A DNA stretch of 41,133 nt. Source: Massilimicrobiota sp. An134 (lineage in GTDB: Bacteria; Bacillota_I; Bacilli_A; Erysipelotrichales; Coprobacillaceae). The translations under genes were made by a program, and so were the position numbers. A model generated the notes under the pieces. It did no database searches. It was given only the letters and a program-made list of their open reading frames with translations, and had not been told where the DNA came from. Shown here piece after piece: positions 11,423 through 36,727 of this stretch; position 1 is the first letter of the stretch, and every line of letters starts with the position of its first letter. The DNA lies in assembly GCF_002160815.1 (NCBI RefSeq), contig NZ_NFLH01000022.1, positions 1 to 41,133 of the forward strand, written 5' to 3'.

Positions 11423-12908
<1,486 letters not shown>

Positions 12909-12910
<2 letters not shown>

Positions 12911-15053: not shown

Positions 15054-15899
15054 ATGTTAAAGGTAAAACATTTAAAAAAGAATTATGCTTCATTTTCATT
15101 AGACTGTTCTTTAGAAGTCAAACCAGGTTATGTCACTGGCTTGATAGGACAAAATGGAGCTGGAAAGAGTACAACATTTAAAGCTATCTTAGGGTTAATT
15201 CAATGTGATGGAGGATCAATTGAAATATTTGGTCAATCTGCTTTGAATGAAGAGGATAAACAGTTATTAGGTGTTGTTTTATCGGATTCAGGTTTTAGTG
15301 GATATTTAACAATATCAGATATTATTCCTATATTAGAGAATTTATATAAACAATTTGATAAATCATTCTTCTTACGTATGGTGAATCAGTTTGAATTGCC
15401 TAAAAATAAGAAAATCAAAGAATTTTCTACAGGGATGAAAGCAAAATTGAAAATTATCGTTGCGATGAGTCATCAGGCTCAACTGTTGATTTTGGATGAA
15501 CCAACAGCGGGGCTAGATGTGATTGCGAGAGATGAATTGCTTGATATGATGAGAGATTATATGACAGAAGATGATCAAAGAGCTATTTTAATCAGTTCTC
15601 ATATTTCCAGTGATTTAGAAACACTCTGTGATGATGTCTATATGATTCATGATGGTCAAGTAATTATGCATGAAGATACGGATGTCTTATTAAGTGAGTA
15701 TGCTTTATTAAAGGTAGATGATCAACAATTTGAACAGTTGGATAAGGCGTATATCTTAAAATACAAAAAGGAAAGTTATGGTTATAGCTGTTTGACTCAT
15801 CAAAAACAATATTATAGAGAAAATTATCCTAATATTGTATTAGAAAATAGTCATATTGATGATGTGATGACAATGATGATTAGAGGTGAAAAATCATGA
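15054..15899 (+). CDS. ABC transporter ATP-binding protein
   Basis: A 281-residue ATPase with Walker A GQNGAGKST near residue 37, signature FSTGMKAKLKI near 125 and Walker B LLILDEPTAGLD. The C-terminal 60 residues are a short extension typical of ABC-2 type exporters of the YtrB/BcrA class. It is the second gene of the GntR operon and overlaps the permease by four bases (ATGA). The operon type is usually linked to antibiotic or envelope stress, but no substrate can be named. Confidence 0.92.
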   Translation: MLKVKHLKKNYASFSLDCSLEVKPGYVTGLIGQNGAGKSTTFKAILGLIQCDGGSIEIFGQSALNEEDKQLLGVVLSDSGFSGYLTISDIIPILENLYKQFDKSFFLRMVNQFELPKNKKIKEFSTGMKAKLKIIVAMSHQAQLLILDEPTAGLDVIARDELLDMMRDYMTEDDQRAILISSHISSDLETLCDDVYMIHDGQVIMHEDTDVLLSEYALLKVDDQQFEQLDKAYILKYKKESYGYSCLTHQKQYYRENYPNIVLENSHIDDVMTMMIRGEKS

Positions 15900-32295: not shown

Positions 32296-32401
32296 ATTAC
32301 TAACAATGTATTTTGAATGGGAGAGGGAAAATATTACATTGCCAATGGAAAATTTATTTTTTTATCGCCTCCTATGTTTTATACTATATCAAGTATTTGT
32401 C

Positions 32402-32429
32402 TTTGTATTTTCAAGAAAGTATGTTATAT
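32402..32429 (+). promoter_or_regulatory. Putative dusB promoter
   Basis: TTGTAT and TATATT (32424-32429) lie about 16 bp apart. A start site seven bases on would fall at an in-frame ATG (32436), so the transcript could be leaderless or nearly so. Confidence 0.4.
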
Positions 32430-32447
32430 TGTGTTATGGTGAAAAAA

Positions 32448-33443
32448 ATGAAAATTGGAAATATAGAAATTAAAAATAGAATTATTATGGCGCCTATGGC
32501 GGGTATCACAAATGTTGCGTTTAGAAAGATTATTAAAGAATTTGGAGCTGGGCTAGTCGTTAGTGAAATGGTTAGTGATAAAGCCTTATGTTATGGTAAT
32601 CAAAAAACGATTGAAATGTTGACGATTGATGAAGATGAACATCCAGTCAGTATACAGATATTTGGTGGGGATGTAGATTCCATGGTCAAAGCAGCCAAGT
32701 TTGTAGATGAACATTCCAACTGTGATATTATTGATATTAATATGGGATGTCCTGTTCAGAAAGTTTTAAAAGCTCATGCTGGAAGTTATTTATTGCAGTA
32801 TCCAGATTTGGTTTATGATATTGTTAAAAATGTGGTGGAAGCTGTCAGTAAGCCAGTGACTGTTAAGATACGTATTGGTTATGACTTTGATTCTATTAAC
32901 TGTGTAGAAATTGCAAAATTGATTGAAAAAGCAGGAGCGAGCGCTATTGCTGTACATGGAAGAACACGTTCACAAATGTATGAAGGTCATGCTAACTGGG
33001 ACTATATCAGACAGGTGAAAGAAGCTGTCTCTATTCCCGTTATTGGTAATGGAGATGTCAAAACGGCTCAAGATGCAAAACGTATGTTGGAAGAAACAGG
33101 TTGTGATGCTGTGATGGTTGGAAGAGCAGCACTTGGGAATCCATGGGTTATTCAACAGATGGTTGCTTATGTTGAAAATGGAGTTTTATTAGAAGAACCA
33201 ACAATGGATGAAAAACTCAATCAATGCTTATCACATGCTAAAAGATTAATGAGTGTTGAGGGCGAAAAAAATGCCATGAGACAAATGCGAGGGCACGCTC
33301 CATGGTATATCAAAGGTTTAAAATCAGCAAGTGCTATTAAGAATCATCTTTCTAAAGTCAATACATATAATGAATTAGAAGAGATTATAGAAAAATATCG
33401 TATTTATTTACATACAGGTGATAAAGCAGTTTTTGAGGAATGA
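32448..33443 (+). CDS. dusB: tRNA dihydrouridine synthase
   Basis: A 331-residue FMN enzyme reducing uridines in tRNA. The TIM-barrel landmarks are APMAGITNVAFR, INMGCPVQKV (catalytic Cys), AIAVHGRTRSQMYEG, VIGNGDV and VGRAALGNPWV, and the helical C-terminal domain is complete. I start at ATG 32448 (MKIGNIEIKNRIIMAPMAG), the usual family beginning; ATG 32436 is the alternative, and longer starts are implausible. In Firmicutes dusB is normally followed by lysS; here lysS is missing and only a 3' fragment survives at 39.6 kb on the other strand. Confidence 0.95.
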   Translation: MKIGNIEIKNRIIMAPMAGITNVAFRKIIKEFGAGLVVSEMVSDKALCYGNQKTIEMLTIDEDEHPVSIQIFGGDVDSMVKAAKFVDEHSNCDIIDINMGCPVQKVLKAHAGSYLLQYPDLVYDIVKNVVEAVSKPVTVKIRIGYDFDSINCVEIAKLIEKAGASAIAVHGRTRSQMYEGHANWDYIRQVKEAVSIPVIGNGDVKTAQDAKRMLEETGCDAVMVGRAALGNPWVIQQMVAYVENGVLLEEPTMDEKLNQCLSHAKRLMSVEGEKNAMRQMRGHAPWYIKGLKSASAIKNHLSKVNTYNELEEIIEKYRIYLHTGDKAVFEE

Positions 33444-33457
33444 TAGGGGAAAACACT

Positions 33458-34437
33458 ATGGGGAAATTAAAAAAGAAATTATTTTACCAATTTTAGGTAT
33501 ATTTGTTATTGTGTGCATTATAGGTGTTATTTTATGGAATAGGCAAGATTTTCATTTAATCAAAGATACATTAACTTTGGAATATGGAGAAACTTTACCA
33601 AATCAATTTGATGATTTTATTGAGACTAATGGTGATATTGAAAATATTGAATATAGTAGTCAAGATATAGATGATTTTGAAGAAGTATTAGATGTTGGAG
33701 ATTATACAATTGATTTTCAATTGGGAAATAAAAAAGAAACTTTATATATTTCAGTAGAAGATACGACGTCACCTCGATTACAATTACGAGAAGAAGTAAC
33801 TGCTTTACAAAATCATACTATTGATTATGAAGAATGCCTATCTATACAGGATTTATCGGAATATGAGACTACCATTATTGATGATGATGTCAATTACAAT
33901 ACACCAGGAAAATATGTTGCGAAAGCTATAGTTAAAGATGAATATCAAAATCAATCAACAATAGATATACCTGTTACGATTGAAGAAGTAACTTTGAAAG
34001 CTTCAAATGCGTCAATGACTTTGAAACCAAATGAAACACAGACATTAAAAGTAACGACAAATAGTCATCATGCAATTACATATGCATCAAGCAATCCAGA
34101 TGTTGTGACTGTAGATGAAGCAGGTCATATATCTGCTTTAAAAGCAGGAACTGCAACAATAAGTGCTAGTGTTGATGGACATACCCAAACATGTCATATT
34201 ACAGTTCCTTCTACACAAAAGAAATCAACAACATCATCTCATCATACAACACATCACTCTTCTACAAATGGAACAACACAATCATCAAATAATTATGTAG
34301 GAGAAACAGTTTATATAACAAAAACAGGTGAAAAATATCATCGCGATGGTTGTCGTTATTTAAGAAGAAGTCAGATTGCTATTTCATTAAGTGATACAAA
34401 GAATCGTGGATATACAGCATGTAGTGTATGTTTCTAA
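33458..34437 (+). CDS. Membrane-anchored Big2 protein with a C-terminal Cys motif; needs a -1 frameshift
   Basis: TAGGGGA at 33444-33450 precedes ATG 33458, but this frame ends after 12 codons. At its codons 4-6 is TTA AAA AAG, which contains A AAA AAG in phase; a -1 slip there joins MGKLKK to EIILPILGIFVIV and an open frame to 34437, giving about 326 residues. The product has one N-terminal membrane span, two beta-rich extracellular regions, a Big2 Ig-like domain (about 190-265), a Ser/Thr/His linker, and a C-terminal domain YHRDGCRYL...ACSVCF with paired cysteines, found at the ends of various secreted proteins. The intact frame argues for function. GTG 33418 inside dusB is a less likely unshifted start. 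Confidence 0.75.
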
Positions 34438-34463: not shown

Positions 34464-34490
34464 AAAGAAATGCGAACATTTCTTTTTTTT
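34464..34490. terminator. Bidirectional terminator between the Big2 and LytTR genes
   Basis: AAAGAAATG-CGAA-CATTTCTTT is a 9-bp stem with a tetraloop, an A run before it and T8 through it and behind. Confidence 0.88.
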
Positions 34491-34492
34491 CT

Positions 34493-35113
34493 TTATTTCA
34501 ATTGTGATTTATATTTTTGACCAATAGGTAGGCATGTATGAGAGTTCATATAAACATAGGTAGAGGTCTTTTTTTGAATATAAGCCTTATTAATAATGTA
34601 TGATTTATGAATTTGAATAAATCCTAATGGTTTTAACTTCCTTAATATTTGTGATAGTTTTTCTCTTACTTTAAATGTTGCGCTTTCGGTATGAATGAAT
34701 ACATAATGTCCATAAGATTCAATGTATTCAATTCTTTGTGAGTTAATTCTAATAGTTTGATAACCGGATTTAAAATTTAATATTGTCCCTAAACCACGTT
34801 CTTTATATTGTAGAATTTCTATTAAATGAATAATGTCTTTTTCAATATGTGAAAGCCTAACAAAAGTTAAAGGGTTGTATTCTAATAATTCAAACATATA
34901 TTCTCCATTTTCAATTAAGAATATAAAATCTAAATGATAAAAAGATAATGTCTCCATTTCTTTAATATCTTGAATTGAGCGAATTTGTTTGATAAAGATG
35001 GCATTGACTAAATGGTTATTATATTGAATATAGGTTATGTTTTGAAAGTATGTGTTAAAATATCTTTTGAGTATTTGAGTATATTGAACTTCACACTGTA
35101 AAATAATATTCAC
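34493..35113 (-). CDS. LytTR-domain regulator with a degenerate receiver
   Basis: A 206-residue DNA-binding protein. The LytTR domain is at about 105-206 (IRINSQRIEYIESYGHYVFI, FKVREKLSQILRKL, GFIQIHKSYIIN). The N-terminal half has the length of a receiver, but I see no clear DD pair or phospho-acceptor (FYHLDFIFLIENGEYMFELL occupies that place), so phosphorylation is doubtful. It shares one base with the end of the membrane-protein gene upstream, which suggests a two-gene control unit. LytTR proteins often regulate bacteriocins, virulence or their own membrane partners. Confidence 0.88.
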   Translation of the reverse strand: MNIILQCEVQYTQILKRYFNTYFQNITYIQYNNHLVNAIFIKQIRSIQDIKEMETLSFYHLDFIFLIENGEYMFELLEYNPLTFVRLSHIEKDIIHLIEILQYKERGLGTILNFKSGYQTIRINSQRIEYIESYGHYVFIHTESATFKVREKLSQILRKLKPLGFIQIHKSYIINKAYIQKKTSTYVYMNSHTCLPIGQKYKSQLK

Positions 35114-35739
35114 TATTTTATTTTCTCCTTTTCAAGTGATTCAATGTATTCCTGAAATTGATAACTATTTGTACTTAACACAGACCTCAAATTGTATTTA
35201 TCAACGATTTCAATATGTTGCTGTTCTAATAATTGTAGTGCTTGTTCATAATCACCTTTTTCTATCTGATTAATGCTTGTCGGGAAAATGGTAAAAACAG
35301 AACCATCATGCATTAAAAAAGTCATTTTTAATCTATAACCTTTCTGTGCCCATCCTGCGAATTGGGTAATATAAGATAGATTAACTTTTAAAATTTGATT
35401 TGCTTTCATAGAAGTGTTGGGAATGGCTTTTTTGTTTTTTAAAATACGAAAGACTTCGACAAGCTGATTCAAAAATCCTTTAGCGTGGTAATAATTAACA
35501 CTTTGCATGGTAAACTCTAAAGTTTCATAGGAACCAATAATAGGTGTTAGAAATAACATAGTTAAAATATATATAAAAAAAGAAAAGATATAGTTATTGA
35601 TAAGTGGTAAATTTGTATAAAGGTGAAAGATATTAAAAAATCCAACAGCAGTCAATAAGCCAAAAACAGATAAATATATCCAACTGAAAACAATTCCTTT
35701 TCTTGACATTCTTTCTCCAATGGTAACTTTCTTATCCAT
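35113..35739 (-). CDS. Membrane protein partnered with the LytTR regulator
   Basis: A 208-residue protein of no recognised family. Two or three membrane spans lie in residues 17-75 (GIVFSWIYLSVFGLLTAVGF, IFSFFIYILTMLFLTPIIG), followed by a cytoplasmic part of about 130 residues that looks alpha/beta, possibly PH-like (YRLKMTFLMHDGSVFTIFP). A strong AAGGAGG precedes the ATG. It is the first gene of a two-gene operon with the LytTR protein, so a membrane anchor, sensor or inhibitor of that regulator is plausible, as in LytTR regulatory systems. It is not a histidine kinase. Confidence 0.7.
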   Translation of the reverse strand: MDKKVTIGERMSRKGIVFSWIYLSVFGLLTAVGFFNIFHLYTNLPLINNYIFSFFIYILTMLFLTPIIGSYETLEFTMQSVNYYHAKGFLNQLVEVFRILKNKKAIPNTSMKANQILKVNLSYITQFAGWAQKGYRLKMTFLMHDGSVFTIFPTSINQIEKGDYEQALQLLEQQHIEIVDKYNLRSVLSTNSYQFQEYIESLEKEKIK

Positions 35740-36271: not shown

Positions 36272-36727
36272 CTATAGGAGAAAATGACGTGAATTGAAAT
36301 CTATTATTTTTCTATTTCTCCATGAATCATATTTATGAATCAGATGTAACGGAACATCAAAATGATTAATTATTATTAAGGGTTCAATATGATATTTTAA
36401 ACATTCAACAACAATATTTTCATCGCCATGAGGAAAGATTCTTGACCAACAAATAGAAAAACGATAAACATTAAAGCCTATTTGTGCAAGTATGGTAATT
36501 TCTTCTTTATAATGATGATAACCATCAATAGCATATCTTGAAGGATATCTCTGATCTTTTAATATTTCTGGATCTAAGGCATCAGATGCGACAGGAGAAT
36601 GATTTTCCTTAGCAGGAATAAAATCTACATTAGATAAACTTCTATTTTTTTCTAAATAAGCTCCTTCATATTGACTAGTAGCAGTTGTTCCACACCATAA
36701 GAAATTTTTTGGAAATTGATTCATCAT
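36272..36727 (-). pseudogene. Truncated GH1 6-phospho-beta-glucosidase
   Basis: The 151 codons begin like a full GH1 enzyme (NQFPKNFLWCGTTATSQYEGA) and continue to VYRFSICWSRIFPHGDEN. About 15 residues around the usual [10 protein letters not shown] are missing, and the sequence then resumes at VVECLKYHIEPLIIINHFDV. It stops soon after WRNRKIIDF, before both catalytic glutamates. So it has an internal in-frame deletion and has lost roughly two thirds of its length. It still has a ribosome-binding site and a strong upstream promoter with a leader. The intact relative is at 11,471-12,910. Confidence 0.88.

Follow-up and report, generated by a model that had tools for sequence, protein, structure and literature searches.

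A probable out-of-frame poly(A) allele of a conserved surface-protein gene in Massilimicrobiota sp. An134

In the 41,133-nt stretch of Massilimicrobiota sp. An134 DNA analyzed here (hereafter the window), an ATG with a good ribosome-binding site opens a frame that ends after only 12 residues (ATG GGG AAA TTA AAA AAG AAA TTA TTT TAC CAA TTT TAG), and within it an A AAA AAG heptamer lies in phase. A –1 shift at this heptamer leads into a frame that stays open for 320 codons and gives MGKLKK-EIILPILG..., a product of 326 residues. This raises the question of whether the heptamer is a recoding signal through which the long protein is made, or whether a single gene has been broken by an indel. The initial annotation had described the ATG with its ribosome-binding site and short frame, the in-phase heptamer and the size of the shifted product, and all of these are confirmed, coordinates and residue count included (Table 1).

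Table 1. Features at the dus–surface-protein locus (window coordinates)
Feature	Position	Strand	Basis and remarks
dus (tRNA-dihydrouridine synthase)	32400..33443	+	Pfam PF01207, E=4.8e-106; upstream neighbor of the surface-protein gene
In-frame upstream extension from GTG 33418 (also TTG 33433)	33418..33457	+	Alternative start, judged unlikely
Shine-Dalgarno-like AGGGG of ATG 33458	33446..33450	+	Sequence; AGGG kept in 4/4 aligned genomes
12-codon short frame	33458..33496	+	Conserved ATG start, stop TAG 33494-33496; the same ATG opens the intact 326-aa L035 orthologue
A6G tract/in-phase A AAA AAG	33469..33475	+	Alignments with congeners: 1 base missing about here; blastn gap 33472/33477
–1-frame body	33475..34437	+	TM helix, Ig-like domains, Big2, Ser/Thr/His linker, C-terminal His/Cys domain (YHRDGCRYL...CSVC)
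Intrinsic terminator GAAATGCGAACATTTCTTTTTTTT	34466..34491	+	Probable; read directly from the sequence

The ATG lies 14 bases beyond the stop of dus, with which the gene is probably co-transcribed, and this gene order is kept in three congeners (L035, L036, and L037). The dus stop comes one codon earlier here than in the congeners, which creates an ATGA overlap (33440-33443) with an extra ATG at 33440 whose frame is the broken frame of ATG 33458. The terminator is not listed by a consensus scan applying a 3-GC-pair rule. Further downstream, on the minus strand (34493-35739), a gene for a LytTR-domain DNA-binding protein adjoins one for a 208-aa membrane-like protein without a Pfam match. A 151-aa piece of a glycosyl hydrolase family 1 gene (36272-36727, minus strand; profile positions 2-141 of 453) is apparently a remnant, and an intact GH1-like gene occurs at 11447-12910.

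The long frame has the properties of a genuine gene. Off-frame stops occur at 9-11% per codon in the neighboring genes, so that about 320 open codons point to real coding sequence; the off-frame stop frequency of about 10%, together with the existence of full-length orthologues, rules out a chance ORF. Its product matches the Pfam models Big_2 (2e-9) and Big-like (1e-10), and an AlphaFold2 model (mean pLDDT 79.6) shows a TM-type helix at residues 14-40 followed by β domains. The protein is thus predicted to be a membrane-anchored Ig-like/Big2 surface protein with a C-terminal His/Cys motif domain, and the earlier description of the –1 frame as a complete membrane-anchored Big2 protein holds, given these matches, the helix and the full-length orthologues. 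The Foldseek matches are generic Ig-like or cadherin-like multidomain proteins with low TM-scores, internalin K among them, and are uninformative on function; a PDB sequence search with the His/Cys domain returned nothing convincing. This domain (34305-34434), with the pattern VYITKTG.KYHR.GCRYL..S...SL..A...GY.AC..C, has no matching model in Pfam or NCBIfam. It recurs, mostly at 60-80% identity, in proteins from Coriobacteriia, Clostridia, and some viral contigs (L038-L050, L116-L119) that differ outside it. The scan of viral contigs recovered relatives of the C-terminal domain only and no orthologue of the surface-protein gene. The surface protein is 76-84% identical to its relatives, as against 78-99% for the products of most neighboring genes, i.e., it is faster-evolving.

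Comparison with homologues, which the initial annotation had proposed as a check, bears directly on the origin of the two frames. In all three congeners compared, viz., two MAGs (L035 and L036) and M. timonensis An13 (L037), each the single genome of its species, dus precedes the gene, the start is the ATG seen here, with its AGGG Shine-Dalgarno element, and a single frame runs through the heptamer region (N termini MGKLIKKIII in L035 and MGKLIKRIIV in L036 and L037); an in-phase A AAA AAG is missing from each of them. An in-frame allele hence exists in close relatives: the L035 orthologue is whole and exactly as long as the shifted window product, and the N-terminal frame is intact in L036 and L037. 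In the more distant relatives L005-L007 the ORF likewise stays in one frame, and its product has a lysine-rich tail and a TM helix. Aligned with the congeners, the window lacks one base between TTA and ATTATT, and blastn against the relatives places a single 1-nt gap at 33472-33477. The aligned tract is not identical among the relatives (TTAATTAAAAAAATT in L035, TTAATTAAGAGAATA in An13), so that we can only infer the exact base lost and an A7 ancestor.

We propose that the window strain probably carries a recent and potentially revertible OFF allele, in which a 1-nt poly(A) contraction has disrupted a conserved, genus-level surface-protein gene. The contraction would have occurred at codons 5-7, where the tract is rich in A, and would most simply be a step from A7 to A6 by replication slippage, leaving an A6 of out-of-frame length at codons 4-6, in the 5′ coding region. 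The conserved ATG would thereby be thrown out of frame, with translation ending after the 12-residue peptide and the surface protein being OFF or nearly so. Since the break lies in a poly(A) tract, slippage of the same kind could restore the frame, as happens in Listeria inlA. A little product may possibly arise at a low level from leaky slippage, whether ribosomal or transcriptional, for which no programming would be needed. The allele looks like an ordinary, easily reversed slip and not a special programmed frameshift. Against a contraction, A6 is short for a contingency locus, and no A7 allele was seen among the genomes compared, all of which belong to other species.

The selective history of the gene constrains the age of the break. 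On the branch leading to the window lineage, a Nei-Gojobori three-point estimate over 311 codons gives dN 0.071, dS 0.400, and dN/dS 0.18, which shows that purifying selection acted on the protein over most of the period since divergence and that it was translated during nearly its whole history. With a ratio this low, the break would be either recent relative to the species divergence or a sequencing error, unless it is tolerated via leakage. Together with the lack of any further stop, the ratio rules out an old pseudogene. It also bears out the earlier suggestion that the gene is probably used, for its history rather than for the present allele.

The same gene is damaged elsewhere in the genus. 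Among about 21 window genes compared with the orthologous contigs of G002 and G003 (not all being covered in both), it is the only one with an uncompensated internal frame break. The An13 orthologue carries an independent +1 close to the Ser/Thr/His linker, within an A9 tract (L037:3781-3791), which splits it into ORFs of 270 and 88 aa; an A9 tract is of a length associated with transcriptional slippage. In L036, codon 36 is an in-frame TAA, surrounded by clustered substitutions that are possibly MAG errors, and in G004 dus is present without the surface-protein gene behind it. The An13 break, the L036 stop, and the absence in G004 suggest a dispensable, lesion-prone gene, and the pattern fits repeated inactivation for which A tracts are hot spots. 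The initial annotation had left the choice between slippage and A-tract phase variation: a change in poly(A) length is the best supported of these, by both the homologues and the An13 break, and a programmed frameshift is not supported.

Two different A-tract frameshifts in one gene of two species, absent from the other genes compared, in conjunction with a surface-exposed, faster-evolving product, might be taken to mark a surface antigen of Massilimicrobiota that has evolved phase variation (as a contingency locus) through several switching A tracts. This would be a sub-case of the OFF-allele reading, with the consequence that the probabilities we attach to the readings sum past one. We regard it as rather unlikely, as neither the positions nor the lengths of the tracts are conserved, the A6 is short, no within-species variation is seen with one genome per species, and the data would be explained just as well if a dispensable gene were simply decaying. 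Quite unlikely, too, is a genus-wide surface antigen whose expression switches through A tracts that drift in position from species to species (at the 5′ end, as A6, in the window strain and near the linker, as A9, in An13), for which leaky slippage would provide a low basal level.

That the real gene is intact, its A tract having been misread in sequencing or misassembled, we consider quite unlikely. Comparable genes of the contig have no other frame break, and those compared give no sign of a generally error-prone assembly. Six-base tracts are rarely miscalled by Illumina (the platform used for this genome may differ), which would also count against an error. Nevertheless, the lesion is a single 1-nt homopolymer indel in a gene otherwise under purifying selection, and the authors of the GeneTack survey attribute unclustered frame breaks mostly to indels or sequencing errors and expect unclustered, BLAST-validated singletons to be mostly the latter (PMC3711429). 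As for An13, it probably comes from a chicken-caecum isolate series reported as sequenced on Illumina NextSeq (PMC6069880).

Programmed or otherwise productive –1 ribosomal frameshifting at the A AAA AAG, which would give the full-length MGKLKKEIIL..., is very unlikely, and we reject it as the main reading for want of conservation and structure. The heptamer is in phase and of a type that ranks among the most slippery in E. coli (PMC4066793, PMC5009743), the only tRNA-Lys genes among the tRNA genes and loci scanned have the anticodon UUU, as in E. coli, which makes some slippage at AAG plausible, and the downstream frame is intact and bears the mark of past purifying selection. However, the dnaX-type signal proposed earlier is not conserved: all three congeners read through from the same ATG in frame 0 without the heptamer. 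Nor was a stimulatory structure found downstream, where pseudoknot-free folds do not exceed those of shuffles in strength (z = 0.45 over 101 nt, 0.11 over 61 nt); a weak fold at the start codon, obtained with a 49-nt segment (z = –3.4) out of three segments folded, covers the Shine-Dalgarno and start region and is no downstream stimulator. Of the sequence hallmarks of dnaX-type sites, the in-phase X XXY YYZ heptamer is found, and neither a downstream stem-loop nor conservation of the site or frame transition among orthologues accompanies it. The Shine-Dalgarno element used for initiation ends 18 nt upstream of the heptamer, against a spacing of about 10 nt in dnaX. The relatives make the same single protein without a shift, so that no regulatory gain from frameshifting is evident.

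The mere presence of the heptamer is likewise of little weight, since its in-phase frequency in ordinary genes is about that expected by chance: the window holds 57 AAAAAAG against 26.9 expected from dinucleotide shuffles, and 39 of its ordinary genes hold 6 in-phase A AAA AAG against 4.4 ± 1.9 from codon shuffles, one of them at codon 7 of the ABC-transporter gene at 15054. In E. coli coding sequence, likewise, A_AAA_AAG is only moderately counter-selected (PMC5009743). Transcriptional slippage (PTR) has been tied to A tracts of >7 or T tracts of >8 (PMC3711429); the A6 of the window falls below this, and the A9 of An13, elsewhere in the gene, would qualify.

Translation from the in-frame GTG 33418, which the initial annotation had named as an outcome that would overturn its reading, or from TTG 33433, either overlapping the end of dus, is very improbable and is rejected: a shift-free ORF of 339 aa is open from the GTG, but neither codon has a Shine-Dalgarno element, the GTG is GGA or GGG in the relatives, which use the ATG with its AGGG, and the proteins of the congeners contain nothing that corresponds to the extension.

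The locus illustrates how a plain indel can account for a broken frame with a conspicuous in-phase slippery heptamer when homologues are brought into the alignment. In addition, it draws attention to a surface-protein gene, from a genus of the chicken gut, in which A tracts have been the site of repeated breaks although the sequence still bears the mark of purifying selection; the gene is therefore an inexpensive candidate for tests of phase variation in commensals. With E. coli dnaX, it shares the in-phase A AAA AAG and the finding of tRNA-Lys UUU alone, but lacks a Shine-Dalgarno element at the dnaX spacing, a downstream stem-loop, conservation, and a second functional product. With Bacillus subtilis swrA, which undergoes poly(A) phase variation (as cited in PMC2831843), it shares a 5′ poly(A) frameshift near nt 20-27, although switching has been observed in swrA and one allele is seen here. 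More generally, poly(A) tracts are enriched at the 5′ ends of prokaryotic genes, and in Listeria monocytogenes inlA an A7 tract is in frame, A6 leads to a stop after 8 aa, and reversion from A6 to A7 occurs at ~1000× the point-mutation rate (PMC2831843). For inlA, A7 alleles and measured reversion are on record, whereas the present gene is represented by a single allele and encodes an unrelated protein. Yet both are surface-protein genes with an early out-of-frame A6 that yields a short peptide (12 aa here, 8 aa in inlA), an intact downstream frame, and in-frame alleles in relatives, and the window allele is a close formal parallel of inlA.
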